The notes: generated by a model from the letters alone, not told the origin. Positions 4,550-21,649 are shown, numbered from the stretch's first letter. The stretch: 21,718 nucleotides of DNA from a virus (IMGVR_UViG_3300042563_001227:1-21718), one strand, 5' to 3'. Numbers and translations: made by a program.

Positions 4550-4578
4550 ATTATACTATCTTTCTATAAACCTGTCAA
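4550..4578 (-). promoter_or_regulatory. Consensus sigma70-type promoter for the 277-aa gene
   Basis: On the minus strand TTGACA (4573-4578) and TATAAT (4550-4555) match consensus at all 12 positions, with a 17-nt spacer. The TGA stop codon of kdsB (4575-4577) is embedded in the -35 box. Confidence 0.85.
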
Positions 4579-7210: not shown

Positions 7211-7220
7211 TGTGTACTTT

Positions 7221-8207
7221 ATGAAAAATGATTTTCAATCCATACCTTTCTATGATATAAAACGTTTTGGACAACGTACTATGCTGAGTCGTCCGTTATT
7301 TTCTGTAAGTTGGATACTTGGCAGATTCTGTAATTACAGTTGTTCTTATTGCTGGCCGTATGCTAGATCAGATAAACCCGATCATCAAGAATTGGAAGTC
7401 TATAAAAGAACCATAGATCAAATCAAGAGCCAGGCTCGTACCAACGGGTTCACAGAGTTTCATTGGAGCTTCAGTGGCGGTGAGCCTACTGCTTACAAAC
7501 AATTACCCGATCTAATGCGGCATCTACAGGATGACACCACAAGTCCTTACCAAAGCATACACATGACCACTAATCTATCCCCGGGATCTAAGTGGTGGAA
7601 AACATGGAATGCCAATACTGAAATGATGCAGCGTAGAAGTATCACAGCCAGTTATCATGCAGAACATGCCAAGGAACAAGAGTTCGGGGACAAGTGTCTA
7701 CAACTTATGGAAGATCAAATATTTGTAACTATAAATCAAGTAATGGTACCGGAAAACTTTTGGGAACTTTATGAAAGATGTGCTAGATTTCATGCCAAGG
7801 GAATAAATGTTACACTGAAACCGCAGAGTGATCCTACTGCCAGTTTCCTAGTAAGTGGTTATACTGATGAAATGATAAACCTAATGCAAACAGGATTCCC
7901 TCAGGTAGCACGGGGTGAGGATTTATACCAGATCGCGTTATATGATTCTGAAGATCGAGAATATCTGTTTGATCAGGCAGAAAGATTTAATGCATTCGGG
8001 TTCAATAAGTTTCAAGGGTGGCAGTGCAACTCGGGATTTCAAAGTGTTATTATACGAGGCAACGAAGTTAAAAGAAGTTATAGTTGTCATGATCGGCCTC
8101 TAGGTACCATAGATGCTGGCTTCAAATTATTTGATGCTCCTAAAACCTGTATCACTACCAGCTGTGTCAGTTCTGCAGATAGTAAAATACCCAAACAACA
8201 TGTCTAG
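7221..8207 (+). CDS. Radical SAM enzyme A (SPASM-like C-terminus), 328 aa
   Basis: Radical SAM enzymes cleave S-adenosylmethionine at a [4Fe-4S] cluster to start radical reactions. The cluster motif is CNYSCSYC (Cys37, 41, 44), followed by FSGGEP (85-89), which binds the SAM amino group. The C-terminus has further Cys at 269 (GWQCNSG), 289, 310 and 315, fitting a second, SPASM/twitch-like cluster. It is paralogous to the protein at 18780: both share GWQCN, the same Cys spacing and an ADxKIP- or ADIP-like end. The frame stays open upstream to 7047, but that lies inside the tRNA-like gene, so I place the start at ATG 7221. The next gene overlaps by 8 nt. The substrate is unknown. Confidence 0.88.
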   Translation: MKNDFQSIPFYDIKRFGQRTMLSRPLFSVSWILGRFCNYSCSYCWPYARSDKPDHQELEVYKRTIDQIKSQARTNGFTEFHWSFSGGEPTAYKQLPDLMRHLQDDTTSPYQSIHMTTNLSPGSKWWKTWNANTEMMQRRSITASYHAEHAKEQEFGDKCLQLMEDQIFVTINQVMVPENFWELYERCARFHAKGINVTLKPQSDPTASFLVSGYTDEMINLMQTGFPQVARGEDLYQIALYDSEDREYLFDQAERFNAFGFNKFQGWQCNSGFQSVIIRGNEVKRSYSCHDRPLGTIDAGFKLFDAPKTCITTSCVSSADSKIPKQHV

Positions 8208-8886
8208 ATTAATCGCATTTGGATGTTCATTGACCTACGGTCATTGCCTACCGTCTAGGGATCTAGCATGGCCCAACCAATTATCTAGAGTGTTGGGTCT
8301 CGACTGTGTAAACATGTCTCGAGTTGGATCTAGCAATAAGCAAATATGGCATGATCTAATAAACTTTGATTTTCAAGAGGATGATGTGGTGTTTGTTCTA
8401 TGGTCGTATCCGAGTAGAAGCTGTGTGCTTAAAAATAAAAAAGAATCGGTTAGCATCGGGCATTGGATGATCGAGGAATCTGAATTGTCTAAAACATTCT
8501 ATGAACAATTCTATACAAAATATGACATGGAGACCCAGAGCAAATTGTTTGTGAGTCATGCTAATCTTTTTTTAGCAGATAAAAAAATAACAATATATAA
8601 TCTATGCATAGAAAAGTCTCACACACTGTTGTTTGAAATGGGTGTAAATCATATTCCCTTACACTTTGGATCTTATGAAAAGATCTTCCCTAAAGCAGAT
8701 GACAATCTACATCCTGGCGTGGATGCCCACGCTATGTTCTCTAGAGATATTTTAATGCATCTAGGAAGAACCGAATATAAACATATTCCAAAAAAGAATC
8801 CCATGAGTTTGGTAGAACGATTATCGCAGCCATTCGATTTTAAAAACTTCTATGAACAACTTAGAAAACTAATAAAGAGATTGTAA
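8200..8886 (+). CDS. SGNH/GDSL-hydrolase-like protein, 228 aa
   Basis: The N-terminus MSRLIAFGCSLTYG has the block I strand and FGCSLTYG (Ser10 as putative nucleophile, with Cys in place of the Asp of GDS). MSRVGSSN (39-46) fits block II, VVFVLWSYP fits block III, and DNLHPG (Asp168, His171) gives the DxxH of block V. The set fits an SGNH hydrolase, usually an esterase or O-acetyl-processing enzyme. I chose ATG 8200, where the conserved N-terminal strand begins and which overlaps the previous stop. An upstream ATG at 8113 would add 29 residues without homology-like features. It sits between two radical SAM genes and ends TAATG with the next, so it is co-translated with them. Residues 190-228 form a basic tail. 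Confidence 0.7.
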   Translation: MSRLIAFGCSLTYGHCLPSRDLAWPNQLSRVLGLDCVNMSRVGSSNKQIWHDLINFDFQEDDVVFVLWSYPSRSCVLKNKKESVSIGHWMIEESELSKTFYEQFYTKYDMETQSKLFVSHANLFLADKKITIYNLCIEKSHTLLFEMGVNHIPLHFGSYEKIFPKADDNLHPGVDAHAMFSRDILMHLGRTEYKHIPKKNPMSLVERLSQPFDFKNFYEQLRKLIKRL

Positions 8887-9878
8887 TGTACAATATCGCA
8901 GAAATCGAATCAGTTCATTTTGAAATTACCAATAAGTGTCAGGCTAGGTGTCCAATGTGTCCTAGACGCATACTCGGTGGTCCAGAAAACCCATTCGTTG
9001 AGCAGGCTGAAATTTTGCTAGATGATTTTAAAAAATGGTTTCCTGTGTATTTTATCAAGTCTTTGAAAAATTTTATCATGTGCGGTAATCTAGGAGACCC
9101 TATAGTTGCCAAAGATACACTAAAGATCTTTGAATACATCAAAGATATCAATCCCGGTATAGAACTACATATGCATACCAATGGCAGTGGCAGATCCAAA
9201 GACTGGTGGGAAGGTATGGCCGCACTAGATGTGATAATAACTTTCGGTATTGATGGTCTTGGAGATACCCATCACTTGTACAGAATAGATACTGATTGGA
9301 ATAAAATAATTGCCAATGCTAAAATTTTTATCCAGGCAGGGGGTAGAGCTCGATGGAATATGTTGGCATTCAAACACAACGAACATCAAATAGAATCTTG
9401 TCAAGAACTTAGTAAGTCTCTAGGGTTTGAAGTTTTTGAAGTCAAACATACTAGTAGATTTAAAACAGAGCAATGGCGGGCTATCGACGACCTAGGCAGG
9501 ACTGTACATGTCCTAGAACCTACAGCAAGAAGCCTATCCATGATACCTAAAATGATTGAAGCAGAGGCTGAAATTAAACCGTTCATTGATTGCAAAGCAG
9601 TTAAGAGCAAACAAATTTATGTCGCAGCCGACGGAAATGTTACGGCCTGTTGTTGGGTTGACAGCAAATGGAAAGCTCCCATGGACGATTATAGAATTGA
9701 TTACATGGACAAAATTGGTGTATTCCATAATCTTAAAAATAATTCTCTAGAAGAAATATTTAATAGTGGATATTTTAGAGATATTGCAGATACTTGGTCC
9801 ACATGTGCATTAAAAGAATGTTCTAAGCAGTGCGGAAGTTTTAATAAATTCGGAGAACAATTTGAAAATAGATCTTGA
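8886..9878 (+). CDS. Radical SAM/SPASM enzyme B, 330 aa
   Basis: The cluster motif is CQARCPMC (Cys18, 22, 25). CGNLGDP (66-72) stands where many family members have GGEP. FGIDGLGDTHHLYR (120-133) is the conserved barrel strand of this subtype. The C-terminus shows Cys236, the pair Cys255-256 within a 'VAADGNVTACCW' strand, and Cys307/312/316, a typical SPASM-type auxiliary-cluster pattern. It is closely similar to the protein at 11922 (shared FGIDGL.DT.H.YR and KHNEHQ/RHNEHQ), on the opposite strand. SPASM enzymes often modify peptides, but many act on small molecules; no precursor peptide is visible here. The start overlaps the previous stop by one base. Confidence 0.9.
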   Translation: MYNIAEIESVHFEITNKCQARCPMCPRRILGGPENPFVEQAEILLDDFKKWFPVYFIKSLKNFIMCGNLGDPIVAKDTLKIFEYIKDINPGIELHMHTNGSGRSKDWWEGMAALDVIITFGIDGLGDTHHLYRIDTDWNKIIANAKIFIQAGGRARWNMLAFKHNEHQIESCQELSKSLGFEVFEVKHTSRFKTEQWRAIDDLGRTVHVLEPTARSLSMIPKMIEAEAEIKPFIDCKAVKSKQIYVAADGNVTACCWVDSKWKAPMDDYRIDYMDKIGVFHNLKNNSLEEIFNSGYFRDIADTWSTCALKECSKQCGSFNKFGEQFENRS

Positions 9879-10458
9879 ACATCTACATTATTGGATGTGT
9901 GCGATCAGAGAAAGCAATGACCCTAAACGCACACTAGATGCATTCTGGAAAGGCCAGATGCAGAGCAAGGAATGGTTGATAACAAACCTTAGACCGTTTA
10001 TTAAAAACTGGGTTCGGATTGAAATACACGGGGGGTGGGTTGGTGTATTAGCTAGTATGCTATTTCAAAGTGATATTCCTGCCAAGTATATCCTAAGTGT
10101 TGACATAGATCCCGAATGTGAACCCATCGCAATGATGATGAACAAAGGTGAAGAACAGGTAGGAAAGTTTCGTGCATTAACCGCAGACATGTGTGAAGTT
10201 CCCACACACGGTGATATTATCATCAATACCAGCTGCGAGCATATAACACAAGACCAGTATGCCGCATGGTTAAACAACATTTCTGGAGATCCGTTATTGG
10301 TATTACAAAGCAATGATTATAGAATTCCAGAACATGTAAGAACCGCAGATTCTCTAGAAGATTTTAAAAATCAATGCGGTGTTAATGTTTTGTGGTCAGG
10401 ATCGTTAAAACTACAACTATATACAAGATTTATGATTGTTGGAAAATTAAAGAGATAA
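9862..10458 (+). CDS. Class I SAM-dependent methyltransferase-like protein, 198 aa
   Basis: The pattern fits a small Rossmann-fold methyltransferase: motif I as IEIHGGWVGVLASM (53-66), an acidic strand end VDIDPECEP (80-88) that would bind SAM ribose, ALTADMCEV (105-113), and the motif IV-like DIIINTSCEHI (118-128). About 40 N-terminal residues form a helical cap. The start is TTG at 9862 with GGAG 7 nt upstream, overlapping the previous stop by 17 nt. It closes the plus-strand run with the radical SAM and SGNH genes and runs into the convergent gene at 10447 with a 12-nt overlap. The substrate is unknown. The glycine motif is slightly unusual (HGGWVG), so binding of SAM is likely but not proven. 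Confidence 0.7.
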   Translation: MKIDLEHLHYWMCAIRESNDPKRTLDAFWKGQMQSKEWLITNLRPFIKNWVRIEIHGGWVGVLASMLFQSDIPAKYILSVDIDPECEPIAMMMNKGEEQVGKFRALTADMCEVPTHGDIIINTSCEHITQDQYAAWLNNISGDPLLVLQSNDYRIPEHVRTADSLEDFKNQCGVNVLWSGSLKLQLYTRFMIVGKLKR

Positions 10459-11925
10459 TTTCTTTTCTATGTAAGACTTTATTATTTGATCTTTAAGAAT
10501 TTTTAGATTAGAACTTCTATTCTGTGAGTTTTCAGACAATGCCTGTTCAACTGACACTCCTTGACTCATGATGCCCCAAACTGCAAAAATGCCTGCTTTA
10601 GATTCAAATGGTCCTTGCAGCGGATCATATTCCTTCGACAACTTCCCAAACGAAAAGATATCTCCGTAATCATTCTTCCAAAAGATCTGCGGTGTTGATA
10701 AACTAATATTATGTTGTTCGAACGATGTCCGGTCCTCATATTTTTTTATTTCATCTTCGCTCATTTCGGAATATCCAAATTTAGAAAAATCTTCACCAAA
10801 CGCACTTAGTACTTTGTTTTCTCCTATCTTTGGAATTGATAAATTCCAAAAATGCCAATGCTGATCTTTCCAATTTTCTTTCAACCATTGAATTGTTTTT
10901 TCTAATGATTCTTTTGGCTCTAAAGGAAGCCCTGCTATCAATGATGCAGTTCCCCGATAATATCCTACATCGGATAACATGCGTTCCCTGATTTTTAACA
11001 TGGTTTCTTTAGTTGTATCCGGAGACATCCCTTTGCCGATTATTTTTCCAGTAGGATGATTAAAACTTTCCACTCCATAAAAATGTCCCCATATCCTACA
11101 CCTCACTAATAGATCGAGTTGATAGGGTTTGGCATTAACTAAATCCAATCGAATGAACCCAGCAAAATTGGGTTTAAAATTAAGACGCTCTACTGCCGAT
11201 GCTAATTTTTCTAACTTAGTGTCTCTTTCATTTATTGTTTCGTCGGCAATTAGGTAGTTGGTTATTCCCCATCGGTCGTAGTTAGACTGTAATTCTTGGT
11301 ATAATTCATCTTCACTTGTTGATGTATCTTCTTTTAATCCTAACACAGGACTATCACAAAATTTGCATTTAAATCTACAACCCCTAGCTAGTTCAATGGT
11401 TAATACATCTGCACTTCTCATAAAATCTCTATCTTCGTATTCTATCCTGTATGTCTCCAACGGCCACGCAGGATAGAATTCGAGAGCATCAGTGAACCAT
11501 CCTTTGAAAAAAGGCTGTCCTGTAGGCTTCTTTGTACCGTTTCCAAATTCATAATTTAGAACCTCAGTAATGGCATGTTCACCGAATCCGTAAATGTAGT
11601 AGTGAGCATTTAGATCTTTGTTGAAGCGTTGACTGCCGCCTACTATTATTTTTATATTTTTATATTCTTGTCTAATGTGTGTTATTAGGTTTATAGTGTT
11701 ATCATGATCTTGCAACCAATTAACTGAAACACCCACCCAGCTGATATCCGTACGACTGGCTAATAGTTTTTTTAATTCTTCAATGTTCCAGAATGCAAAA
11801 TAATCAACAACCTCAATGTCCCATCCATGCTTTCTCAAGTGAGTAGCTATGCGATACGCACCGTTTGATCTTCCGGTACTAGGATTCTCTTCAGAAAATC
11901 CTGCAAAAATTAAACCTTTTTTCAT
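10447..11925 (-). CDS. Radical SAM enzyme C with B12-domain-like N-terminus, 492 aa
   Basis: The first 130 residues look like a Rossmann (cobalamin-binding-type) domain: KGLIFAGFS, then HGWDIEVVDYF, ISWVGVSVNW and IKIIVGGSQ as successive strands. The classical DxHxxG cobalamin motif is not visible, so B12 may not be bound. The radical SAM core follows with CRFKCKFC (Cys183, 187, 190), ADETINER, and later strands such as GHFYGVESF. This is the architecture of B12-dependent radical SAM methyltransferases and related family members such as BchE- and MiaB-style enzymes. The C-terminal 100 residues are unique. The ATG overlaps the upstream radical SAM gene by 4 nt (ATGA), so the two are co-translated. 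Confidence 0.85.
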   Translation of the reverse strand: MKKGLIFAGFSEENPSTGRSNGAYRIATHLRKHGWDIEVVDYFAFWNIEELKKLLASRTDISWVGVSVNWLQDHDNTINLITHIRQEYKNIKIIVGGSQRFNKDLNAHYYIYGFGEHAITEVLNYEFGNGTKKPTGQPFFKGWFTDALEFYPAWPLETYRIEYEDRDFMRSADVLTIELARGCRFKCKFCDSPVLGLKEDTSTSEDELYQELQSNYDRWGITNYLIADETINERDTKLEKLASAVERLNFKPNFAGFIRLDLVNAKPYQLDLLVRCRIWGHFYGVESFNHPTGKIIGKGMSPDTTKETMLKIRERMLSDVGYYRGTASLIAGLPLEPKESLEKTIQWLKENWKDQHWHFWNLSIPKIGENKVLSAFGEDFSKFGYSEMSEDEIKKYEDRTSFEQHNISLSTPQIFWKNDYGDIFSFGKLSKEYDPLQGPFESKAGIFAVWGIMSQGVSVEQALSENSQNRSSNLKILKDQIIKSYIEKKLSL

Positions 11926-12965
11926 AATTGGTCTCTGTCAGATACAGGTGCTTGTGCGTTTATTGCGCAGAACAAAACACATATTGCGATTCTATTTTGA
12001 GATATCCACCTAGCCTCAATCTGGTTAAAAAAATCACCAGCAACGATGTCGGTCCAATTATTAAATTTAAGACTGATGTTTCGATCTCCATGATCTTTCC
12101 ATAATTGATCCCAACCATCGTGCATGGTCTTTCCGAATTTGGTTTCATATTGATAAACTCCCGATGCTGTATAACAACACGGAAACAATCTACCTTTAAC
12201 ATCAATGTATGCTTCTTGATGATTTTTCGATATGCAGGAGATGTCAAGAGATTTAGTTTGTTCTTTCCAAGTTGCTGCATTTGGTACAAATTTAATTTCG
12301 CTAATAAATTCTGTATCAGTTGGAGGTTCTATTTTTGTCTGTGATGCTCCGACTATTTCTATTCCTTTTATCTCGGACTGTACAAATCTATGAGGTTTCT
12401 TTAACATGAATGTTTTGAACCCTAACTCGGAAGCAAGAATGCGAGCTTGATCTCGTTGATGTTCGTTGTGCCTAAATACAATAAACTGCCAAGTAGCATT
12501 GCCGCCTGCTGCTATAAATGCCTTGACATTTTTTATCAAACTATTCCAATTGACATTTACTCTATAGATATGATTGGTGTCTTCCAACCCATCAATACCG
12601 AATATAACTTCGTGATTTGCCGGCAATGCTTTTGCTAATTTTTCCCACCAACTAGCAGATTTCATACCGCCATTAGTAGCCACTGAAATTTTCAAGTTAG
12701 GATTAATGTTTTTAACAGTCTCGACAACTTCTAAAAAATTAGGTGCGGTGCAGGGATCGCCTATGCTACCAGCGAAGTGTACAGTCGACAACTCGTCGTA
12801 GACATGTTTAGGTATAGACTTAACAAAGAATTCAGTTTCTAAATACTCTTCTTGAAACCAAGACTTATCGTCCCCTTTGTCTTCTCGTAAACAATGAGGG
12901 CATCTCGCGTTGCATATAGAGCTGTTTTCTATTTCTAGAAAATCTAATTTATTATAAAAATTCAT
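11922..12965 (-). CDS. Radical SAM/SPASM enzyme D, 347 aa
   Basis: The motif CNARCPHC (Cys18, 22, 25) is followed by HFAGSIGDPC (63-72) and IFGIDGLEDTNHIYR (121-135). The C-terminal part has Cys244, a Cys263-264 pair in 'IDVKGRLFPCCY', and then Cys329 and Cys333. It is the paralog of enzyme B at 8886, aligned almost throughout. It appears to lack B's equivalent of Cys307 (the region here reads SQNRIAICVLFC), so the last cluster may be different or the end diverged. It overlaps the upstream kinase-like gene by 14 nt and the downstream radical SAM gene by 4 nt. It is probably a partner of enzyme C, because the two are translationally coupled. Confidence 0.9.
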   Translation of the reverse strand: MNFYNKLDFLEIENSSICNARCPHCLREDKGDDKSWFQEEYLETEFFVKSIPKHVYDELSTVHFAGSIGDPCTAPNFLEVVETVKNINPNLKISVATNGGMKSASWWEKLAKALPANHEVIFGIDGLEDTNHIYRVNVNWNSLIKNVKAFIAAGGNATWQFIVFRHNEHQRDQARILASELGFKTFMLKKPHRFVQSEIKGIEIVGASQTKIEPPTDTEFISEIKFVPNAATWKEQTKSLDISCISKNHQEAYIDVKGRLFPCCYTASGVYQYETKFGKTMHDGWDQLWKDHGDRNISLKFNNWTDIVAGDFFNQIEARWISQNRIAICVLFCAINAQAPVSDRDQL

Positions 12966-13656
12966 TCTTAATCGTTAGTAGCTGATCCACAAGGTCAGAT
13001 GGATAATTATGTCTGAAACTTTCAAAACATATGTTCTGTAAAAACCAAAGATCGTATTTTCTTTTTATATCTACTCCGGTCTCTTGCAAAATAGGAGCAA
13101 GTTTTTCTTGCCGACTATCACTTAACTGTATTAGATAATCGTGTATAGACCGATCTTCTTCATTTCTTTGAAAAGAAAAAAACCAATTGAACGGGCGCAG
13201 TACTCCGTCATCATATACCAACCAACTATTAGGATGCATACTGAATTTCAATATGCCAGAACTCCACATCTCTCTATATCGCTGTTTTACCTGTTCTCTC
13301 CAATCCGGCAGCACATCGTCGTAGTTGCGTCCGTAGCCCATCATATAAAAATCATCCCCTGGCCACTTTATATAAATCTCTCTCTGAGATTCGTTGACGT
13401 CGATGACATCAGCAACGGCCACTGTTGTCTTGGCTACGTTGTACATGGCTATTTCACGTTGGAAACGCTCAGTTAACAGATCCTCAGACCACTGTTCGTT
13501 TTCTAACTGAACATTATGATACTCTAGATTGCGATGAAACTTCATACAGAAAGTTTTGTTGTCAGGACTTACGTATGGAGTATAGACCAGATTGGCCCTG
13601 CAAATACCGTCAGGTTCTTGATTGTAGTAGAAATTCCATTTGGTTAAGTTTGGCAT
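12952..13656 (-). CDS. Kinase-fold-like protein, probably degenerate, 234 aa
   Basis: Not firmly recognised, but the layout recalls small protein-kinase/phosphotransferase-like (APH/Bud32-like) folds: a possible lysine strand FCMKFHR (Lys39), a helix with Glu (ERFQREIAMY, Glu68), a hinge-like strand IYIKWPG, and a catalytic-loop-like SMHPNSWLVYDDG (140-151) followed by LRPFNWFF where DFG would be. Relative to HxDxxxxN and DFG the key Asp residues are missing, so catalysis may be lost or altered. The frame extends upstream to 13686, but that would overlap the divergent gene's promoter-like gap. I use ATG 13654-13656, where MPNLTKWNFYYN begins. It is the first gene of the run that leads to enzymes D and C. 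Confidence 0.5.
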   Translation of the reverse strand: MPNLTKWNFYYNQEPDGICRANLVYTPYVSPDNKTFCMKFHRNLEYHNVQLENEQWSEDLLTERFQREIAMYNVAKTTVAVADVIDVNESQREIYIKWPGDDFYMMGYGRNYDDVLPDWREQVKQRYREMWSSGILKFSMHPNSWLVYDDGVLRPFNWFFSFQRNEEDRSIHDYLIQLSDSRQEKLAPILQETGVDIKRKYDLWFLQNICFESFRHNYPSDLVDQLLTIKNEFL

Positions 13657-13678
13657 AATAAATACGTACATATTTATG
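13657..13678. promoter_or_regulatory. Divergent pair of T4-late-like promoter motifs
   Basis: Plus strand AATAAATA at 13657-13664 and minus strand CATAAATA at 13671-13678 each match seven of eight bases of the T4 late element TATAAATA. They face outwards into the 35-nt gap between the kinase-like gene (ATG 13656, minus) and the oxygenase gene (ATG 13692, plus). Predicted leaders are about 9 nt (minus) and 22 nt (plus). Confidence 0.5.
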
Positions 13679-13691
13679 AAGAACAATTTTA

Positions 13692-14501
13692 ATGATTAAG
13701 GGAATAGACAATCGACCTTATTTAGATATGACACCATATCTGGACATGAAGGTCTTCGACCAGTTGCAGCCTGAGATATATAGAGGCTTTGCTGATGCAA
13801 GACTATATGCTAAAGAGGGTACCTGGATGAAGCCTGGGATGCGGGTAGAAGATGCTAGCTACGTACGAAATTGGAAACCTATCTACCAGGCCATAGAAGA
13901 ATTCCTAGCACTGCCAGACGACGATCCTATCAAACAGGGTGGAATAGATCTCTACAGAGATTTCCACAATTTCGAAGTTAGGAATAGATTTACTCGTTAT
14001 CTAAAGATGGCTATGGGCGCATACGATCCCTACATTTACTATTATCTGTGGGAAGAAGGTTCGTGGGACGATAGAACTGCCGCACGTAAGTTAACACCCG
14101 AAGCACAGCATTTTCCTAATGTTGTCAGGTGGGTTGAAAGTCTAGTAGGCACAGTGTTTGAAGACATTGGTCGTGTTATATTTTTCCATTGCGAAGCAGA
14201 TGGTATACCATTTGAACATAGAGATCTCGATGCTAGTCATGGGGTATGGGACAGCAATACCTATACACCTCATCGTAATGAATTCATTCACGTTAGGCCT
14301 AGTTTATCAAAACCGTTTTATATATGGGATGCACATGCCAAGAAAAAAGTCTATATCGATAGTAGAGCTGCATGGTGGAATGATCAAGATTGGCATGGCG
14401 GAGATCGAATCATGCAGCAAAGCTACGGTCTTCGAATAGACGGCAAGTTCACTGAAACCTTTCGAACTCGATTAGGGGTTGGACATTTAGAAAATTATTG
14501 A
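13692..14501 (+). CDS. Putative 2-oxoglutarate/Fe(II) oxygenase (aspartyl-hydroxylase-like), 269 aa
   Basis: A facial-triad pattern is visible: HRD at His176/Asp178 in GIPFEHRDLDA, a distal His235 in DQDWHGGDR, and Arg248 in YGLRIDGKF as a possible 2-oxoglutarate anchor. This order (HxD ... H ... R) fits Fe(II)/2-oxoglutarate hydroxylases. Beta strands RVIFFHCEAD and EFIHVRPSL would form the jelly-roll. The N-terminal 110 residues are helical, with Tyr/Asp-rich loops. The family reading is an inference from spacing. It is a single plus-strand gene between the divergent promoter-like gap and a second oxygenase gene that converges on it, with 15 nt of 3' overlap. Confidence 0.6.
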   Translation: MIKGIDNRPYLDMTPYLDMKVFDQLQPEIYRGFADARLYAKEGTWMKPGMRVEDASYVRNWKPIYQAIEEFLALPDDDPIKQGGIDLYRDFHNFEVRNRFTRYLKMAMGAYDPYIYYYLWEEGSWDDRTAARKLTPEAQHFPNVVRWVESLVGTVFEDIGRVIFFHCEADGIPFEHRDLDASHGVWDSNTYTPHRNEFIHVRPSLSKPFYIWDAHAKKKVYIDSRAAWWNDQDWHGGDRIMQQSYGLRIDGKFTETFRTRLGVGHLENY

Positions 14502-14999
14502 ATCTGAATAACTGACAATCTGTAGAGACACCTTGGCTTCAAATCCCAGATTACAAGCAGCATGCCAAGCATTGGGATCTTCAAACTCAAAAAGATCTCC
14601 AGCTCGATAATCTCTTAATGTTGTGTTCTCGTAGACAAATACATGCCCTAATTTAGCATCTTGCATGGCCATCCAAAATCGTCTTATATTGGGTTTGTTT
14701 TCCTTGAATAGATCTTGATGCATGGGAAACATATCACCCGGATTCAATTTAGAAAACCACCATTGTCCGTCTTCTCCTGGATCAAATGGCATCTCTATTT
14801 TATCTTGAAAATGGCTTTGATAGTACAGTGTCCAACCTATTTTGTCAATACTGTATCCCGCAGCTCGAGCCTTGTCATATAACGGTATTTTATAAGATCC
14901 TACATTATCAGTCTCTGGACGTCGATCTCCAGGAACTAACAGGATGGTATCTAGTATGTGTGGTTTCAACCAAGTTGAATAGTTTTTAATAAAACGCAT
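14487..14999 (-). CDS. Putative 2-oxoglutarate/Fe(II) hydroxylase, 170 aa
   Basis: A second oxygenase of a different size. PMHQD (His94, Asp96) gives HxD, with a distal His146 in DPNAWHAACN about 50 residues later. A basic residue near the end (Lys156 in FEAKVSLQIV) could be the carboxylate anchor. GDLFEFED just before the distal His is a jelly-roll strand of the type seen in prolyl/asparaginyl hydroxylases. I chose ATG 14997-14999; an upstream ATG at 15026 would place nine more residues across the divergent neighbour's start. A TGTAAATA late-type motif (15008-15015) precedes it. The gene is convergent with the 13692 oxygenase and divergent from radical SAM enzyme E. Confidence 0.65.
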   Translation of the reverse strand: MRFIKNYSTWLKPHILDTILLVPGDRRPETDNVGSYKIPLYDKARAAGYSIDKIGWTLYYQSHFQDKIEMPFDPGEDGQWWFSKLNPGDMFPMHQDLFKENKPNIRRFWMAMQDAKLGHVFVYENTTLRDYRAGDLFEFEDPNAWHAACNLGFEAKVSLQIVSYSDSIIF

Positions 15000-15007
15000 G
15001 ATAACTA

Positions 15008-15015
15008 TATTTACA
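15008..15015 (-). promoter_or_regulatory. Possible late-type promoter motif for the 170-aa oxygenase
   Basis: On the minus strand TGTAAATA matches seven of eight bases of TATAAATA and lies 8 nt upstream of ATG 14999. The predicted transcript would be almost leaderless. No equally good motif faces enzyme E on the plus strand. Confidence 0.35.
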
Positions 15016-16407
15016 ATGACCGACAAACTGAAAAAATTTATTCAAATAGTAGAAGAGAAATCCGGATCTAAAACATTCTGTGTTTTGCCATGGATACACT
15101 TGGCCACTAGACCAAATGGAGATATGCGTATCTGCTGTGTGGCCAATGCCAGTGGTGCGGGATCAGGGGACTATTCCGTAGGCCTAGTTAAAAAAGAAAA
15201 CGGGGATCCTGCTAACTTTGGAAAAGACTTACCTACAGATGCGTTCAATAACGAATATATGAAATCTGTTCGTAGGACCATGTTAGATGGTAAGGTACCC
15301 AGCAGTTGTACAAAATGTTTTGATGAAGAGGATCAAGGAATCGCCAGCAAGAGGATGTGGGAAACATTTACCTGGGATAAGGAAGGAGTTGATATTCCTA
15401 ACCTCATAAAGGAAACATCCCAAGATGGCACAGTTCCTTACAAACTAGAATATCTGGATCTAAGACTAGGACATACTTGTAATCTAAAATGCATTATGTG
15501 TAGCCCGCATGACAGCAGTCAGTGGGTGGGTGAACACAAAAAAGTTTATCCGTTATTTCAAAGTTCATTGATCAAAAAACAGATGGATTGGAACAAAAAA
15601 GATTTCAATAATTTTTGGCATGAAAATCCAGAGTTCTGGCAACAAATATACGATCAAATTCCTAACATAAAACATCTCTATTTTGCAGGTGGAGAACCTC
15701 TAATGATTCGAGAGCATAGATGGTTTCTCGAGGAGATAGTTAAACGTGGATATGCTAAAAATATATCTATAAGATACAACAGCAATGGTGTATTAGTAGA
15801 CGACGAAATAATCGAATTGTGGAAAGAATTTAAAACTGTGAGATTCTCAGTTAGTCTTGATGGAATTTTAGAACGTGGGCACTACATACGATACCCCTTA
15901 GATTGGAAAAAACTAGAAGCAGCTTTATGGAAGTTAGATAACACACCGGACAATATTCTTCCAAGGATTGCCTGTGCAGTGCAGATCCTAAATATAAAAC
16001 ATATACCAGATTTTATCAAATGGAAGATCAACAGCAAATTTAAAAAACTAAATCTAGAAACAGCACTAGACGGAAATGTGTTAGGCGGGGGATTAATGAG
16101 CGTACACTTATTATGGATACCCACATGGCTGAGTCTACGAGTCCTTCCTAAGAAAGACAAGGAAGAAGTTAGAAAATTATTTGCTGATTTGCAGTATTGG
16201 TTATGGAACAACTATACGCAAGATGCAGACTTCTGGGAAAAGAATCCATATGGTTGGCGAAGATGGGAAAGTATCCTAGACTGGATGGATGCCGAAGACC
16301 ACAGCAATTTAATTCCTGATTTTAAAGAATACATAAACACTATGGACACACAGCGAGGAACTAATTTTTCTCAGACTTTTCCAGAATTGAGTCATTTAAT
16401 AAAATGA
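15016..16407 (+). CDS. Radical SAM enzyme E with N-terminal twitch domain, 463 aa
   Basis: The N-terminal Cys-rich module FCVLPWIHLATRPNGDMRICC (Cys22, 40, 41; then Cys98 and Cys101 in SSCTKC) is a twitch-type cluster domain placed before, rather than after, the radical SAM core. The core has CNLKCIMC (Cys155, 159, 162), YFAGGEPL and FSVSLDG. This matches the 'N-terminal twitch domain-containing radical SAM' family as I know it. The C-terminal 150 residues are Trp-rich and not shared with standard SPASM domains. It is the paralog of enzyme G (19669). The start may be ATG 14998 (six residues longer) instead; neither has a good SD. The following GNAT gene starts in an ATGA overlap, so it is coupled. 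Confidence 0.9.
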   Translation: MTDKLKKFIQIVEEKSGSKTFCVLPWIHLATRPNGDMRICCVANASGAGSGDYSVGLVKKENGDPANFGKDLPTDAFNNEYMKSVRRTMLDGKVPSSCTKCFDEEDQGIASKRMWETFTWDKEGVDIPNLIKETSQDGTVPYKLEYLDLRLGHTCNLKCIMCSPHDSSQWVGEHKKVYPLFQSSLIKKQMDWNKKDFNNFWHENPEFWQQIYDQIPNIKHLYFAGGEPLMIREHRWFLEEIVKRGYAKNISIRYNSNGVLVDDEIIELWKEFKTVRFSVSLDGILERGHYIRYPLDWKKLEAALWKLDNTPDNILPRIACAVQILNIKHIPDFIKWKINSKFKKLNLETALDGNVLGGGLMSVHLLWIPTWLSLRVLPKKDKEEVRKLFADLQYWLWNNYTQDADFWEKNPYGWRRWESILDWMDAEDHSNLIPDFKEYINTMDTQRGTNFSQTFPELSHLIK

Positions 16408-16838
16408 AATTTTGTCGTATCAATTTAAGCAAGACTAACTATGAGCCAATGACTCGAGGACATCAATGGGAGTATGTTTCAGATCGTAAGTTTTCCGAAC
16501 TCAACGATATCTACGAAATATATTGTAGGTACAAAAAGTTCGATAGTGTCATGCCTATATTCTCAAACCAATACACTGACAGCTCAGTTGACATTGTGGG
16601 ATATTTTGACGATGGCAAACTAGTGGCCTGGGATATGATCAAAATACATGATGCCAAGAACGCAGAAGCATTGCAGTTTGCGTGGGATTATAAAAATCCG
16701 GATCTACGATTGGGTATGGAAAGTTTAAAGAATGCCTGTGCTATCTATAAACACAGAGGCTTTGAATATCTATATCTAGGCGCAGCGGCTAATTACAAAA
16801 AAGAAATCGACGGCTACGAAGAATTAGGCCCCGCCTAA
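16404..16838 (+). CDS. GNAT-fold protein resembling the Ate1/Bpt C-terminal half, 144 aa
   Basis: The sequence VDIVGYFDDGKLVAWDMI is a GNAT-like strand pair. The helix LRLGMESLKNACAIYKHRGFEYLYLG and the end NYKKEIDGYEELGP resemble the C-terminal acyltransferase half of arginyl/leucyl-tRNA-protein transferases (Ate1/Bpt), which carry a 'YLYLGYWI..C.KM.YK..F.P' motif. Here YLYLGAAANYKKEIDGYEELGP keeps the frame of that motif. The N-terminal half of Ate1/Bpt, with its Cys motif, is absent, so this may be a stand-alone aminoacyl-tRNA-dependent or acyl-CoA-dependent transferase. The gene is coupled to enzyme E by ATGA and overlaps the next, convergent gene by 15 nt. Confidence 0.55.
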   Translation: MKFCRINLSKTNYEPMTRGHQWEYVSDRKFSELNDIYEIYCRYKKFDSVMPIFSNQYTDSSVDIVGYFDDGKLVAWDMIKIHDAKNAEALQFAWDYKNPDLRLGMESLKNACAIYKHRGFEYLYLGAAANYKKEIDGYEELGPA

Positions 16839-17300
16839 TCTCCAAGCTACTACATCATTGTAAAGATTTTCAGGCCAGTTCTTATAGTATCCAACATCTG
16901 TTAATTGTTTACTAGCTGCATTTAGTTTTTCCGTCCGCTGTACTAATATGAGATTGTATCGACCGTTGCTGAAATTTAAGTGATGGAATACTTCAGGTAT
17001 GTCTTTATGATCTTCCAAACATACGAATCCTCTAGACAGCCAATAGTCATTTAGACACCTAACATCTAATACAAAACTAGCTGGCTCTACGTCTCCGCAC
17101 ACAAATCCCACAACATCATATTCCGTAGACCAATTTTCTAGACACTGCGTGATGTCAAAAATATAGTTGTCGGTCTCTACAAATTTTATCTTGGCCTTCC
17201 TGGCATACGGACATGGAGGCAACCCGTTAAGTAAAGCATCTGGTTTACTTAGGAATTCATCAATCCACGATCTAAGATACTGTTCAGATTCCGTAATCAA
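16824..17300 (-). CDS. Unknown protein with PPCPYARKAK motif, 158 aa
   Basis: I do not know the function. A helical N-terminus leads to a Pro/Cys motif (LPPCPYARKAKIKF, about 27-40), then alternating strands and helices (YDVVGFVCGDVE, SFVLDVRCLNDYW, YNLILVQRTEKL). I have seen this general form in small bacterial hypothetical proteins with a CPF/CPYA motif, but I cannot name a family. The start is TTG (17298-17300), with AGGCGG upstream, overlapping the amidinotransferase stop by 17 nt. It is the last gene of the run containing the PP-loop, two radical SAM, DUF6614-like and amidinotransferase genes, so it probably works with that group. The single Cys of CPYA might be catalytic or metal-binding. 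Confidence 0.65.
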   Translation of the reverse strand: MITESEQYLRSWIDEFLSKPDALLNGLPPCPYARKAKIKFVETDNYIFDITQCLENWSTEYDVVGFVCGDVEPASFVLDVRCLNDYWLSRGFVCLEDHKDIPEVFHHLNFSNGRYNLILVQRTEKLNAASKQLTDVGYYKNWPENLYNDVVAWRLGGA

Positions 17301-18453
17301 TTTGTCCGCCTGTTCGTTTGATATCTAGAGTTAGACAATGCCAACCACCATCCCAGAAAAATCTATTTCTTAGTGGGCACACAATCGGGGTAATGTTGTG
17401 TTTTTTTAACACTTTCATTAATTCTGGATTGTCGCTGTTGACCACTACATGCCTATCATCCACGACCAAGCAATTTAAGTCGAAGATTGTTTCTTCACAA
17501 TAGCCAGTCCAGTTAGGCAAGAAACTTTCTACAAACTCAGTGAACTGGTCATTGCTCTCTTCTCCAGGTACCCACCACTTTCCTCTATTCTTATCACGCA
17601 ACGAAAACCATTCTGCGACATGACTCCAGTTCGAATCATTAAAGTAAATGATTTCCCATCCTGGAAATAGATTTTCGTTGCCTTTAAACCACGGTCCTGC
17701 TATCACCAATCCCGGCTTAAGAATACTAAAGACGCTGTCTAGATGTCCACCGATGGCCAAACTCTTGTATTTGAATATAGGATACTTTTGATCTAGGAAT
17801 GTTTCTAGTTCTAGTGTTTGCCAGAGATCTACAATGCAAGAAGTGCCTATCCTTGTTAAGTTTGGACTACAAAATCCAGATAGCTTGTTAACTGTTTCGT
17901 TGGGATTCTTGAGATAGTATTCCTCGTCTAGTCCGTGATCTTTGGCTTCTGCTTTGAGATTAACTTCGGATCTAGTGAACTGAAATTCTCCGTCATAGAC
18001 TGTGAGATCTACTTGGTCTTTACCAAACCACTCGATAAATTTTTTTGTATATCCTGCGACTTCAAAAGTTTTATCAGTTATTAATAATTTCTCACCCATG
18101 ACTACTGCGTCATCTCTGATCTGCAAGGGACTAGTTGGTATGAGATTTTTTTTAGAAATATCGCTGACATCTGTATTGTACCCGATCCTACCATTGATAT
18201 CTGCATAATCTAATATACTATCTTTATAACCTAGTTCTTTAGGAGATGCTTGCAATACTTCGATGTTATGTGATCGCATCTGCTGTTTAAAATACTCAAT
18301 GTCTTCGTTGGTTTCGTCAACTATTTTTTTCAGAACATCGCCTATCTTTTTATTTTTAACACCGTCGAAGAAATTACTGTCGTAGGTGCTGCCCACAGCA
18401 ACAACTTCTAATGGTTGCATTTCATCCCAACTGTTTACTTTAATTTTTTTCAT
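17284..18453 (-). CDS. Glycine-amidinotransferase-like enzyme, 389 aa
   Basis: This looks like an amidinotransferase of the pentein superfamily (AGAT/GATM-type), which moves the amidino group of arginine to an amine acceptor. Visible are RDD (113-115), the catalytic His in GGHLDSVFSILKPG (His237, comparable to AGAT MHIDATFNI), and the C-terminal nucleophile in GGWHCLTLDIKRTG (Cys373, comparable to AGAT GGGFHCWTCDVRR). I cannot see the matching catalytic Asp of the AGAT N-terminal half with certainty (the region around CIVDLW, 206-211, is the candidate). The length is close to that of the family. It overlaps the DUF6614-like gene upstream by 14 nt. Acceptor and product are unknown; the acceptor could be a metabolite made by the nearby radical enzymes. 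Confidence 0.85.
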   Translation of the reverse strand: MKKIKVNSWDEMQPLEVVAVGSTYDSNFFDGVKNKKIGDVLKKIVDETNEDIEYFKQQMRSHNIEVLQASPKELGYKDSILDYADINGRIGYNTDVSDISKKNLIPTSPLQIRDDAVVMGEKLLITDKTFEVAGYTKKFIEWFGKDQVDLTVYDGEFQFTRSEVNLKAEAKDHGLDEEYYLKNPNETVNKLSGFCSPNLTRIGTSCIVDLWQTLELETFLDQKYPIFKYKSLAIGGHLDSVFSILKPGLVIAGPWFKGNENLFPGWEIIYFNDSNWSHVAEWFSLRDKNRGKWWVPGEESNDQFTEFVESFLPNWTGYCEETIFDLNCLVVDDRHVVVNSDNPELMKVLKKHNITPIVCPLRNRFFWDGGWHCLTLDIKRTGGQIDYGI

Positions 18454-18772
18454 CTGGCCAATCTCTAAATAATGCGTGTTGTATGTTTCCTGATACGAAT
18501 TGATTGAAACTACGATGCTTGCTTTCCAATTCGCCCTCTAATGGTGCTACTCTATCAAATGCTGAATCTAGCTGTGCCATGTTTTGAAATTCCATCATAA
18601 TATGCCATTCCGGAATATCCATGCTACGGAATCCCATCTTGCATCGAGTTATTCTATATGATTCCATCTTGCCTTCATCAACTAAATGTTGCAGGAATTC
18701 TTTCATGTTGTTTACCCAAACAGTATCGGGTATGTCTCCGGATTTGTCAGCCCAGATGTGATATATATCCAT
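18440..18772 (-). CDS. DUF6614-like small alpha/beta-barrel protein, 110 aa
   Basis: The sequence MDIYHIWADKSGDIPD, VESYRI-type strand (here MESYRITRCKMGF), WHIMMEFQNMAQLDSAF and the closing FRDWPDE match my recollection of the DUF6614 family, small ferredoxin-like (dimeric alpha/beta-barrel) proteins of unknown function. His5 and the aromatic residues are typical. There are no catalytic motifs. The gene lies between radical SAM enzyme F (7-nt gap) and the amidinotransferase (14-nt overlap), so it is part of the same transcript and probably forms a complex with or supports one of them. AAAGGA lies 12 nt before the ATG. Confidence 0.65.
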   Translation of the reverse strand: MDIYHIWADKSGDIPDTVWVNNMKEFLQHLVDEGKMESYRITRCKMGFRSMDIPEWHIMMEFQNMAQLDSAFDRVAPLEGELESKHRSFNQFVSGNIQHALFRDWPDEKN

Positions 18773-18779
18773 GTGGTAT

Positions 18780-19676
18780 CTATGGTCCTTTTATTTTGGT
18801 GAATGGTATGTCAGCGGCACAGGTACACCAGTCTCTAGTGCATATCACTGGTTCGTTAGGTACAACAAATGTTCCGTTATAGATGTTGCCCAAGCTGTCG
18901 CCTACTCTGCAGGTAGCTCGGTGAACTTCCCCGTCCCAATTGATCATGAGGCTTTCTAGTCCAGCATTGCATTGCCAACCTTTAAATTGATTTAGATGTT
19001 TTTTAATAACATCATTAGAATGCATGACTTCCGAATCGTCAATACGCACATTGGGCTTTACCGTAGCGTCTTGATTTAATATCCACTCTAGATCTTTTCC
19101 ATCATATTTTAGATCATCGAATATATTGTGATCTCCCTCAGTCCATCGTATTCTACGTACCGCATATTTGATACCTAGTTCGTCGAACTTTTTTACCACA
19201 GTCTTAACGTTGTGCATGTGATCATGATGAGCCATAACATTCACAAAAAAGTCTCGTTCAGTCTCATCGTAGAATTTCATAATAGTATCTACGATCCTAG
19301 TCCAATCATGTTCGAAGTGTAGACTAAACACTAGATGATTGAAAAACATTTCGTGATTTAAGTACCATCTATAACCTCTAGTACCGTTGGTAGTTAAGTT
19401 GACCCAAAAGATATTTTTCCTTTTGAAATATTCTAATAGATCTTCAATGTCGGGATGAACACATGGCTCACCGCCTGTTAAACTAATACGCAAAGGTTTG
19501 CCGATTTCACAGAGCTTATCAACGGTGGCTTCTAATAAATTAATATCGGTATGCGGACTGAAATTATCGTGTATGAATGACGGGCAGTACGAACAATCGT
19601 AGTTGCATCGCTTGCCAAGATTCCACTCAACTTTAAGTTGATCTTGATGAGGCCAACTACTGGTTAACTTATACAT
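18780..19676 (-). CDS. Radical SAM enzyme F (SPASM-like C-terminus), 298 aa
   Basis: CNYDCSYC (Cys24, 28, 31) and LTGGEPC (67-72) mark the core; VNLTTNGTR and FSLHFEHD follow as barrel strands. The C-terminus has GWQCNAG (Cys235), Cys256, and Cys279, Cys284 and Cys286 in VICTRDWCTC, a probable auxiliary cluster. It is the paralog of enzyme A at 7221 (shared GWQCN and similar end). It overlaps enzyme G upstream by 8 nt, with a 7-nt gap to the DUF6614-like gene downstream. The substrate is unknown. The shape recalls peptide- or nucleoside-modifying radical SAM enzymes, but CxxxCxxC with GGEP is generic. Confidence 0.88.
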   Translation of the reverse strand: MYKLTSSWPHQDQLKVEWNLGKRCNYDCSYCPSFIHDNFSPHTDINLLEATVDKLCEIGKPLRISLTGGEPCVHPDIEDLLEYFKRKNIFWVNLTTNGTRGYRWYLNHEMFFNHLVFSLHFEHDWTRIVDTIMKFYDETERDFFVNVMAHHDHMHNVKTVVKKFDELGIKYAVRRIRWTEGDHNIFDDLKYDGKDLEWILNQDATVKPNVRIDDSEVMHSNDVIKKHLNQFKGWQCNAGLESLMINWDGEVHRATCRVGDSLGNIYNGTFVVPNEPVICTRDWCTCAADIPFTKIKGP

Positions 19677-20931
19677 ATGGTTTGAATTCCGGATTTACTT
19701 CTACGAAATTTTGATCTCTAGAAACATCTAGTCTGCGATTAAATTCCACACAGTCGTTCCAAAGGTCGCTTTGATCTCTAGATTTTAGATAGTTTTGATT
19801 ATCCTGTATCTGCCCCATGGTGTATTCGATCAACATAGGATGTTGTTGGCAGGCTTTAAATCCGGCCAATTTACTCTTCACTGCTTCTAATTTATCATAG
19901 GCAAGATCGATCAGCGGTCGAGGCAATACCTGTGCCGATAATACCTTAGGATATTCTACTCTATGAGTATGAAATACGATACCTAGGTCGTCTAGGAAGT
20001 ATTCGATGATTTTATCTAGTACCAACACATTGCTGACCTGCACAGTAACTGCTCCTACGATCCTACTGATGTTAGGTATGGTTTGTATCTGTTTGATGTT
20101 ATTGACTACTTCAGCCCACGAGGCATTCCCTCGTATATACTCGTAGCTATCACCTATACCGTCTATGCTGACGTTGACAGCAACTGATTTGAACTTAGGC
20201 CAGTATTCCCAGATAGTACGATTGCTCTTGCCCAACATAGTTAAGTTGGTAGCATACTTAATTTCAATTTGATGTCCGTATGGTGCAAGCATGTCTAGTA
20301 TACGATAATGCTGTGGATCCATTAAGGGTTCACCACCAGCAAACTCTACTCGTCTAAAATAGGGTAATAACTTCTCTAAGTTAGCCCACCATTCGGGGTT
20401 ATCTTGGAACTTGTCTAGAAACGGTTTACGTTCTAGATCATGTTGCTCTACGATAGCATACATGATATTGTTTTCTTTTTTGTAATACTCTTTTATTACA
20501 CCCCAATCATTCCATGCAGTGCTGTCCATTGGATGACACATACGACATTTCAAGTTACACAAATTGTTTAATTTTAATTCCATTGTGGGTATTTCAAACG
20601 GCATGGAATAGTCGTCTTTTAAAGCGTTTAATGCGCTAGGGTACAAGTTGACCCTAGCTTCGGGAATTGCACCGCGTATATGACGTTGTCGCAAGCTCTC
20701 GACACCTTGATCTTCTAGTGAAAAGCATGGTTCGCATTCCGGAGGTCGTATGTTAGTAAGCACTGACTTACGTATGCGTTTCATTGTGTCATTGTTCCAA
20801 ATCTCTTCGAGATTCTGCTGATCGATAAATCCAACAGGATGGCTGCGGCAACAGGCACATATAGCACCGTCTTCCCTAGTAGCTAAACCAGTGAAGGGAT
20901 GCATACAAAATGTTTTACTTTGATTGTTCAA
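19669..20931 (-). CDS. Radical SAM enzyme G with N-terminal twitch domain, 420 aa
   Basis: The N-terminal twitch module begins almost at the start (SKTFCMHPFTGLATREDG; Cys9, 25, 27, 28, then ECEPC at Cys66 and 69). The core has CNLKCRMC (Cys125, 129, 132), VEFAGGEPL and VNVSIDGIGD. It is the paralog of enzyme E at 15016, in which SKTFC opens at the same place. I chose the start TTG at 20929-20931, because it puts the conserved SKTFC right after the start and overlaps the PP-loop gene by only 17 nt. The frame runs on to 21051, but that would overlap the PP-loop gene by 137 nt. It is followed by enzyme F with an 8-nt overlap. The N-twitch family mostly has no known reaction. Confidence 0.85.
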   Translation of the reverse strand: MNNQSKTFCMHPFTGLATREDGAICACCRSHPVGFIDQQNLEEIWNNDTMKRIRKSVLTNIRPPECEPCFSLEDQGVESLRQRHIRGAIPEARVNLYPSALNALKDDYSMPFEIPTMELKLNNLCNLKCRMCHPMDSTAWNDWGVIKEYYKKENNIMYAIVEQHDLERKPFLDKFQDNPEWWANLEKLLPYFRRVEFAGGEPLMDPQHYRILDMLAPYGHQIEIKYATNLTMLGKSNRTIWEYWPKFKSVAVNVSIDGIGDSYEYIRGNASWAEVVNNIKQIQTIPNISRIVGAVTVQVSNVLVLDKIIEYFLDDLGIVFHTHRVEYPKVLSAQVLPRPLIDLAYDKLEAVKSKLAGFKACQQHPMLIEYTMGQIQDNQNYLKSRDQSDLWNDCVEFNRRLDVSRDQNFVEVNPEFKPYV

Positions 20932-21649
20932 TTGCCCACTCTCTTTCTTTGCACCAAAAACATTCTCCACATGTTGGAACGACCTGTCCTGCTGTGTAGG
21001 TAGTATAATTGATATCGTTGAACTCGCCTTCACAACTCCGTGTGGTCTCAAACAAATCCATAATCTCTAATCGTCGATATTGACTCAACACCCATGCCTT
21101 GTCTACGAATCGAAAAGGATGGCTAGCAACACGATTCATGTGTATCATATATTCTAAATGTTTGTTTTCTTCAGTGCGTTCTATATCACGTTCATGCATA
21201 CCGTTGAAGTTAGCAAGCCTTGGATTGCGTGTTATTGCATTGTAGTAGGCGCTGATATTGTGCTTATGACAAATAAATTCTGCATAAGCACGTTGTTGTA
21301 TGTTGTCCCCACTTACTTTCTTGCCATACTCGTCTGTTAGGTTAGGGCCTATATTTCCGTATTCTATATCGGGTGCAATAAAATTAGTATGTCTTTTAAA
21401 TGTTGAGTGATAGAATCTTTGGAACAACCAATCATAGACATTGTCTGCATCATGCTGTTGCCACGGTCGTGTTTTCCACATGCGTACATGATTGATAATG
21501 TGGATAGTGGTGTTGTGTTCTTTAGCAAGACTACAAATCAAGTAGGCTAATAATGCAGAATCAGCACCTCCACTGACACTAATAGCAACGTCCCGCCATG
21601 CCGGATTAAATGGAATATGCACTCCGTCTATATCATGAAATATTTGCAT
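20915..21649 (-). CDS. QueC-like N-type ATP pyrophosphatase (PP-loop), 244 aa
   Basis: The PP-loop SVSGGADSALLAY (24-36; SGGADS 26-31) is the AMP-forming ATP-binding signature. A C-terminal zinc-type cluster (Cys206 in TTRSCEGEF, then CGECFWC, Cys227, 230, 233, followed by KEREWAI) matches the SC...CGxCxxCxxR layout of QueC, which converts CDG to preQ0 in 7-deazaguanine synthesis. Other residues between are not like E. coli QueC, so it may be a paralog with another carboxylate substrate, activating it by adenylation. The start ATG 21647-21649 has AAGG 10 nt upstream. It is the first gene of the long minus-strand run, with enzyme G overlapping its end by 17 nt. Confidence 0.8.
   Translation of the reverse strand: MQIFHDIDGVHIPFNPAWRDVAISVSGGADSALLAYLICSLAKEHNTTIHIINHVRMWKTRPWQQHDADNVYDWLFQRFYHSTFKRHTNFIAPDIEYGNIGPNLTDEYGKKVSGDNIQQRAYAEFICHKHNISAYYNAITRNPRLANFNGMHERDIERTEENKHLEYMIHMNRVASHPFRFVDKAWVLSQYRRLEIMDLFETTRSCEGEFNDINYTTYTAGQVVPTCGECFWCKEREWAIEQSK

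Follow-up and report, generated by a model that had tools for sequence, protein, structure and literature searches.

Positions 7221 to 21649 of the virus contig IMGVR_UViG_3300042563_001227 (21,718 nt, called the window below) hold an island of 17 genes on both strands, which forms the right-hand two thirds of the window and is organised around a small conserved core. This core consists of an AGAT-fold amidinotransferase-like protein (g23), a candidate thiolate-heme guanidine N-oxygenase (g22), a single-domain GNAT protein (g21) and, as the usual fourth member, a DUF6614 protein (g24). Seven radical S-adenosylmethionine (SAM) genes and other putative tailoring enzymes surround it (Table 1). 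We propose, as a reading that is possible but still tentative, that the island gives a large T4-like aquatic phage, here a freshwater one, a biosynthetic pathway on a guanidine core; the island sits in the phage's variable tail-fibre/host-recognition region, and the product would decorate a sugar.

One argument comes from the coupling of the core genes. A search for the amidinotransferase over 2.9 million viral contigs gave 51 loci. In the count of core genes, made on 50 amidinotransferase loci with partner genes scored within 3.5 kb, g22 and the GNAT gene were both present in 42 loci, both absent in 8 and split in none; given the relatedness of the loci, among which are near copies, these do not represent 50 independent events. 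The DUF6614 gene was present in 36 of the 50. The relatives, which come from phages worldwide, were grouped by amidinotransferase identity (group A, the nearest, about 64–76%; group B, 54–58%; group C, 46–48%), and the coupling of amidinotransferase, g22 and GNAT holds from 46% to 76% identity. Most often the order is DUF6614, amidinotransferase, g22, and the GNAT gene faces them from the opposite strand; on the phage-like contig L099 the order is g22, GNAT, amidinotransferase, and several oxygenase-like genes come next in a row. The core of groups A and B stands amid radical-SAM genes, with 7–22 per contig (22 in the 71.7 kb of G017, 18 in G013, 17 in G012, 15 in G011), many of them N-terminal-twitch paralogues. 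Counts are low in the fragmentary records of group C (four in G019, three in G015, none in G022). Since the core is kept down to 46–48% identity with few or no radical-SAM genes, it constitutes a module of its own, around which radical-SAM, oxygenase, methyltransferase and PP-loop genes vary in presence, number and order. An earlier reading of this DNA, made from the sequence alone, had held that scattering of the genes among unrelated neighbours in related phages would speak against a common pathway. The core does stay together, but among relatives the radical-SAM and oxygenase genes are gained, lost and rearranged.

The genes of the island are tightly packed, overlapping or abutting with spacings of -29 to +35 bp. 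As judged from sequence comparison they are under purifying selection, dN/dS between relatives being mostly 0.01–0.25 and in some cases higher where distances are saturated. The CxxxCxxC and SPASM cysteines are kept in all 54 twitch-type homologues, collected from eight contigs. The packing, the kept cysteines and the low dN/dS together indicate that the island is not due to chance. The variable region of a large phage could also have gathered these enzymes independently, as unrelated cargo, and the differences in number and order of radical-SAM and oxygenase genes between relatives would agree with this. However, the core trio is never split, and both the overlap of the genes and the selection acting on them speak against this; we regard such a collection of unrelated genes as very improbable.

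The entire window is also present, end to end, on a second IMG/VR contig of 42,769 bp (99.9%, 12 mismatches, no gap), so the window holds no assembly join. With the roughly 50 further viral contigs carrying relatives, this longer contig rules out a phage/bacterial misassembly, which would have undone the idea of a biosynthesis-like island inside a phage genome, and that idea stands. To the left of the island are KdsB, ThyX, which adjoins it, an SGNH-like gene and phage genes. Beyond the window the longer contig also carries KdsA, a glycosyltransferase-like gene, a QueD-like gene and a UV-damage endonuclease, and fibre-like (tail-fibre-like) proteins flank the island on both sides. Two adjoining membrane fatty-acid-desaturase-like genes on opposite strands were also seen there (L064:9967-11507), with relatives in L009/L010 and G017.

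Outside viruses the amidinotransferase is nearly missing: its profile, run over 84,980 species, found three relatives. Horizontal transfer from cells was considered and rejected, two of these three lying on contigs that are binned in metagenome-assembled genomes (MAGs) and carry phage genes or phage-like gene sets. Likewise, of 289 alphaproteobacterial genomes one had the N-terminal-twitch family (N_Twi), and there it lay on a phage-like contig piece carrying the same gene as the phage-like contig L100. G023, G024 and G025 (GTDB record titled Pacearchaeota MAG) are genome bins with contigs resembling these phages; G025, with 19 N_Twi matches, is probably contaminated with phage DNA. Concerning the type of phage, the 163-kb relative G008 has a T4-type DNA polymerase, and clamp loader, ribonucleotide reductase and curli-like genes were read from its sequence. 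The Gp23 capsid profile matched in G019 only, and the T4-like label of the window's group thus rests on the G008 DNA polymerase and these other genes. The curli-like genes of G008 (L076:10838-13014) encode a CsgG-like protein and a repeat protein, as reported for pelagimyophages.

Taken alone, g23 has no Pfam match. A profile of 24 amidinotransferase sequences searched against PDB retrieved StrB1, human AGAT, HsvA and SxtG with E-values of 5e-24 to 5e-18. In the HMMER alignment from which the AGAT residue numbering is taken, C373, H237 and D239 of g23 are the counterparts of AGAT Cys407, His303 and Asp305, and D114 is the counterpart of Asp170 via the RD-x3-V-x-G pattern. Within the family C373 is nearly invariant and H237 invariant.

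The second core protein, g22, carries in an LP-x-CP[FY]A motif the residue C30, which is invariant in 29 relatives and five cultured-phage homologues. Its AlphaFold2 (AF2) model (predicted local distance difference test, pLDDT, 94) consists of a helix, the Cys loop and a strand-helix-strand-helix-strand-strand-helix succession. Among solved structures AglA has the highest TM-scores (0.43–0.46), but with Foldseek E-values of 0.12–0.2. AglA hydroxylates guanidines by means of a Cys-ligated heme; its four-stranded sheet is packed between helices, and the heme is bound by Cys44 near the N-terminus (PMC12866846). Comparison by hhalign with a trimmed YqcI/YcgG alignment gave P 0.0047; with the cultured-phage homologues added, P was 2.8e-4 (41% probability) for YqcI/YcgG and 1.2e-4 (55%) for DUF6875, against P of at least 0.02 and probabilities of at most 2.4% for 13 control families. 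The YqcI/YcgG comparison had been refined after a first, poor alignment was seen, by trimming domains and then adding homologues. The stretch shared with YqcI/YcgG includes C-x-x-A-K-x-A-L. None of the 29 family members matched PF08892 at E ≤ 1, and the PDB sequence search with g22 gave no match; weak Pfam matches were to DUF6875 (7 of the 29) and DUF1415 (5). DUF1415 was rejected as a relative, its hhalign P of 0.026 not standing above the controls, though the motif order looks alike. Like the YqcI/YcgG guanidine N-hydroxylases AglA, DcsA and GntA, g22 has an N-terminal Cys motif (theirs of PC-x-[FG]-A type), the same alpha-beta order and a pairing with a guanidine pathway (PMC12866846). Unlike these enzymes of about 240 residues, it has only 158 and no Pfam match. 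In our judgement the chances that g22 is distantly related to YqcI/YcgG are about evenly balanced, a distant relation being distinct from membership of that family. Homologues of g22 are also seen, unaccompanied by the amidinotransferase, in HMO-2011, roseophages and cyanophages, so that its role may be wider. In HMO-2011 (L138:2642-4513) and CRP-345 (L139:1372-2633) the homologue directly follows a Lys/Arg-rich protein with C-terminal RGG motifs, with no amidinotransferase nearby.

The third core protein, g21, resembles the C-terminal half of arginyl-tRNA-protein transferase (ATE). PF04377 (ATE_C) was matched by 24 of 25 GNAT family members with a best E-value of 9.7e-7, the window's own member falling under the cut-off, and g21 matched a solved arginyltransferase with E 0.014. 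It has a single domain and no ATE_N match, and tblastn found no match for the GNAT in cultured phages. To the right of the island on the extended contig are 21 tRNA genes (L064:16221-19667 and L065), four of them tRNA-Arg; these four are possibly relevant to the ATE-like GNAT, or may reflect codon supply alone. As to the fourth protein, g24, the gene neighbours of alphaproteobacterial DUF6614 proteins gave no hint of function, none of them being consistent.

All seven radical-SAM proteins named by the sequence-only reading pass the curated cut-off of PF04055 (29.5 bits) with 37.9–49.4 bits, and the profiles sort them into two N-terminal-twitch/SPASM proteins (NF033640, cut-off 170 bits), one B12-binding protein, two with a C-terminal SPASM match and two short ones. 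The B12-binding protein also matched the profile of PhpK-like P-methyltransferases with E 1.6e-20, which is below that profile's cut-off. The true start of Twi2 is probably inside the open reading frame (ORF) listed in Table 1, and tblastn with Twi2 found no match in cultured phages.

Table 1. Genes of the island and the nearby KdsB gene, with window positions and the evidence for each assignment.
Feature	Position	Strand	Length (aa)	Evidence
KdsB-like CMP-sugar synthetase, nearby sugar gene	4575..5234	-		PF02348, 94 bits
Radical SAM 1	7221..8207	+	328	PF04055
SGNH/GDSL-like protein	8200..8886	+	228	PF14606 E 2e-4, below cut-off
Radical SAM 2, C-terminal SPASM	8886..9878	+	330	PF04055 and PF13186
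Methyltransferase-like protein	9862..10458	+	198	Class I pattern read from sequence
B12-binding radical SAM	10447..11925	-	492	PF02310 and PF04055
Radical SAM 4, SPASM-like C-terminus	11922..12965	-	347	PF04055; PF13186 just under cut-off
Small kinase-fold protein	12952..13656	-	234	PDB profile match, AF2 model, Foldseek
Putative Fe(II)/2-oxoglutarate oxygenase	13692..14501	+	269	HxD...H pattern in sequence
Putative Fe(II)/2-oxoglutarate oxygenase	14487..15026	-	179	HxD...H pattern in sequence
Twi1, N-terminal-twitch radical SAM	14998..16407	+	469	NF033640, 405.6 bits
g21, single-domain GNAT, core gene	16404..16838	+	144	Like C-terminal half of arginyl-tRNA-protein transferase
g22, candidate thiolate-heme guanidine N-oxygenase, core gene	16824..17300	-	158	Predicted distant YqcI/YcgG and DUF6875 relative
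g23, AGAT-fold amidinotransferase-like, core gene	17284..18453	-	389	PDB profile match
g24, DUF6614 protein, usual fourth core gene	18440..18772	-	110	PF20319 E 4e-25
Radical SAM 6	18780..19676	-	298	PF04055, 49.3 bits
Twi2, N-terminal-twitch radical SAM	19669..21051	-		NF033640, 325 bits, from residue 45
PP-loop ATPase, QueC-like Cys tail	20915..21649	-	244	SGGxDS and four Cys

Two genes were absent from the sequence-only reading, KdsB and the small kinase-fold protein. The latter matched TTK kinase with E 2e-5 in the PDB profile search; its AF2 model (pLDDT 94) is closest in Foldseek to Bud32/PRPK (E about 1e-6), with class III lanthipeptide kinases also in the match list. The two putative Fe(II)/2-oxoglutarate oxygenases keep that label on the motif read in both, but profile searches gave no family match for either. 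The phage-like contig L100, which has an amidinotransferase and g22, carries NodU/TobZ-type carbamoyltransferase-like genes (6097-7558 and 10364-11773).

Radical-SAM enzymes that modify peptides often have SPASM domains. This could mean that the island serves protein modification, the radical-SAM enzymes, oxygenases, kinase-like protein and GNAT acting on peptides or on proteins of the virion such as tail fibres, and g22 finding its guanidine targets in arginine side chains. The resemblance of g21 to ATE, which acts on proteins, the SPASM/twitch enzymes, the lanthipeptide kinases in the Foldseek list, the RGG-ending proteins before the g22 homologues of HMO-2011 and CRP-345, and the position of the island between fibre-like genes would all fit. 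A search of the island for the precursor of a ribosomally synthesized and post-translationally modified peptide, however, gave no candidate small ORF, and gaps of at most 35 bp leave no room for one. The sole conserved small ORF near the relatives, a 74-aa protein, is absent here, and the recurrence of sugar genes in unrelated lineages would not be accounted for. We consider modification of proteins rather unlikely. In marine relatives this conserved ORF (74–83 aa) adjoins the methyltransferase-like gene (G011:44544, G012:46565, G013:39957, G017:35989).

The methyltransferase-like protein itself is kept in most relatives, with 24 invariant columns among 18 of them, and no solved relative was found. 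Beside an AGAT-like protein it recalls creatine-like metabolism, in which AGAT would produce guanidinoacetate and the methyltransferase would make creatine to buffer energy. Such a use has been proposed for ocean viruses with GAMT, a gene reported to be virus-enriched (PMC11360552). But two genes would suffice for this, not seventeen; g22 and the GNAT would be left without a role, the methyltransferase-like gene is unlinked to the core, and no creatine kinase was seen. Such a creatine route appears extremely unlikely.

In the PP-loop protein SGGxDS and C206, C227, C230 and C233 are invariant among 15 relatives. It matched N-type PP-loop folds with E 0.02–0.08, several PP-loop families matching equally weakly. 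With the QueC profile it reached 14.3 bits, under the cut-off of 22, and TilS/ATP_bind_3 were weak too. The earlier name of QueC-like ATPase is thus borne out by motif and Cys tail, but no QueC cut-off is reached. Radical-SAM enzymes are known to take part in the modification of phage DNA. The QueC-like, QueD and QueE-like proteins and the radical-SAM enzymes could therefore make a modified 7-deazaguanine or another base for phage DNA or tRNA. Besides the Cys tail, ThyX beside the island and the QueD-like genes, on the extended contig and in group C directly after g22 (L044, L045, L050 and L057 near 11600-12200; L063:3246-3770), would agree with such a hypermodification. On the other side, these QueD-like proteins read HGY in place of the HGH of QueD, known 7-deazaguanine routes offer no role for the amidinotransferase core, and no TGT/DpdA-type gene is on any of 23 related records, an absence that is weak because these records are fragments. 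The hypermodified base suggested by the sequence-only reading has become less likely, and we hold it for improbable.

The guanidine pathway with a decorated sugar remains our preferred reading. The amidinotransferase, from what its family does, would move arginine's amidino group onto an amine. As a small thiolate-heme-type enzyme, g22 might oxidise a guanidine nitrogen, the ATE-like GNAT could add an aminoacyl or acyl group, and the swappable radical-SAM, oxygenase, methyltransferase and PP-loop enzymes would tailor the scaffold. Most likely the product would decorate a sugar and so change the envelope of the host or the surface of the virion in the course of infection, and this would explain the fast turnover of the tailoring set beside a stable core. 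Sugar genes are found near such clusters in separate lineages: KdsB, KdsA and a glycosyltransferase-like gene here, a UDP-sugar dehydrogenase, an epimerase and a DegT aminotransferase in G008, an epimerase in G017, and others in S-SCSM2R and CP220, described below. These recurring genes and the location in the fibre region favour a surface glycan as the target.

Several observations weigh against this pathway. At the position of the AGAT triad Asp254 (FDAA) the aquatic phages have Cys or Asn (FCSPN/FCAPN/FNSA), so that amidino transfer by g23 is not assured and we call it AGAT-like instead of filing it as AGAT; the earlier label of AGAT-type holds for the fold and the catalytic Cys and His. 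The link of g22 to heme is weak (Foldseek E 0.12, no PF08892 match, distant profile similarity). Campylobacter phage CP220 and cyanophage S-SCSM2R have an amidinotransferase without g22 or GNAT. Finally, the variable regions of phages like these often hold sugar genes, and those beside the island could be neighbours with no connection to it. The guanidinylated product of the sequence-only reading is its best-supported part, through the amidinotransferase in a conserved core, but is weakened by the replaced Asp; the glycan is a candidate target that neighbouring sugar genes favour.

A free small molecule could also be made, such as a diffusible peptidyl-nucleoside-like or N-hydroxyguanidine natural product directed against competitors or host physiology. 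The mix of amidinotransferase, guanidine N-oxygenase-like protein, radical-SAM, PP-loop and GNAT enzymes recalls the natural-product clusters of bacteria, the amidinotransferases HsvA, StrB1 and SxtG all belong to secondary metabolism, and one DUF6875 relative adjoins a non-ribosomal peptide synthetase adenylation gene. But no exporter, resistance gene or carrier-domain system was seen in the island, and a lytic phage would hardly have the time to benefit from a compound that diffuses away, which makes this alternative unlikely. A more specific proposal is an almost wholly phage-restricted core of amidinotransferase, minimal thiolate-heme guanidine N-oxygenase and aminoacyl-tRNA-dependent GNAT, with a fast-evolving radical-SAM/oxygenase set diversifying a new guanidine-bearing decoration or metabolite; in this full form we find it doubtful. 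If true, phages would carry their own biosynthetic gene cluster for such a compound, an elaborate chemistry not usually credited to them. A conserved core that installs a guanidine and may also oxidise it, with up to 22 radical-SAM genes per contig, would then be a large untouched source of enzymes. It would also explain, in a way that can be tested, why some T4-like phages carry so many radical-SAM genes, a question that dates from 2010. As the core has only three or four genes, its direct expression and assay are feasible.

It is with the Campylobacter phages CP220 and CPt10 (Firehammervirus) that the island can best be compared. Javed et al. (2010) described in each a cluster of five radical-SAM genes and a glycine amidinotransferase as an "interchangeable module" (PMC2853527). 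They are likewise T4-like with multiple radical-SAM genes and an amidinotransferase in one block, about five or more plus the amidinotransferase in a module of the CP220 type and seven plus one here, and in CP220 sugar-transferase-like genes lie beside the block. In contrast, the CP220 amidinotransferase has about 25% identity and keeps the triad Asp, no homologue of g22, GNAT, DUF6614 or the PP-loop protein was found in CP220, and none of its proteins exceeds the N-terminal-twitch family cut-off. Nishimura et al. (2017) reported the T4-like marine phage TARA_ERS488813_N000010 with 12 radical-SAM genes (PMC5332604), and pelagimyophages have radical-SAM cassettes in the host recognition cluster (PMC7029224). 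The window's group shares with them many radical-SAM genes, A-type Fe-S carriers (two in G008, one in G009) and a fibre/host-recognition position; the amidinotransferase/g22/GNAT core is not part of their published descriptions, on which this comparison is based. S-SCSM2R (PQ898602) has KdsB, KdsA, an amidinotransferase and 2-oxoglutarate oxygenases in a row, but no g22, GNAT or radical-SAM array adjoining the amidinotransferase. Compared with AGAT, StrB1, SxtG and HsvA, g23 shares the fold, the catalytic Cys and His and the HxD, and forms a phage-specific branch with Cys or Asn for Asp254. The statement of the sequence-only reading that no described phage pathway has this set was therefore too broad as regards CP220/CPt10 and the multi-radical-SAM phages, but no paper describing the amidinotransferase-g22-GNAT core was found in the open-licence literature. 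While phage blocks of radical-SAM and amidinotransferase genes are already published, it is this conserved core that looks new.

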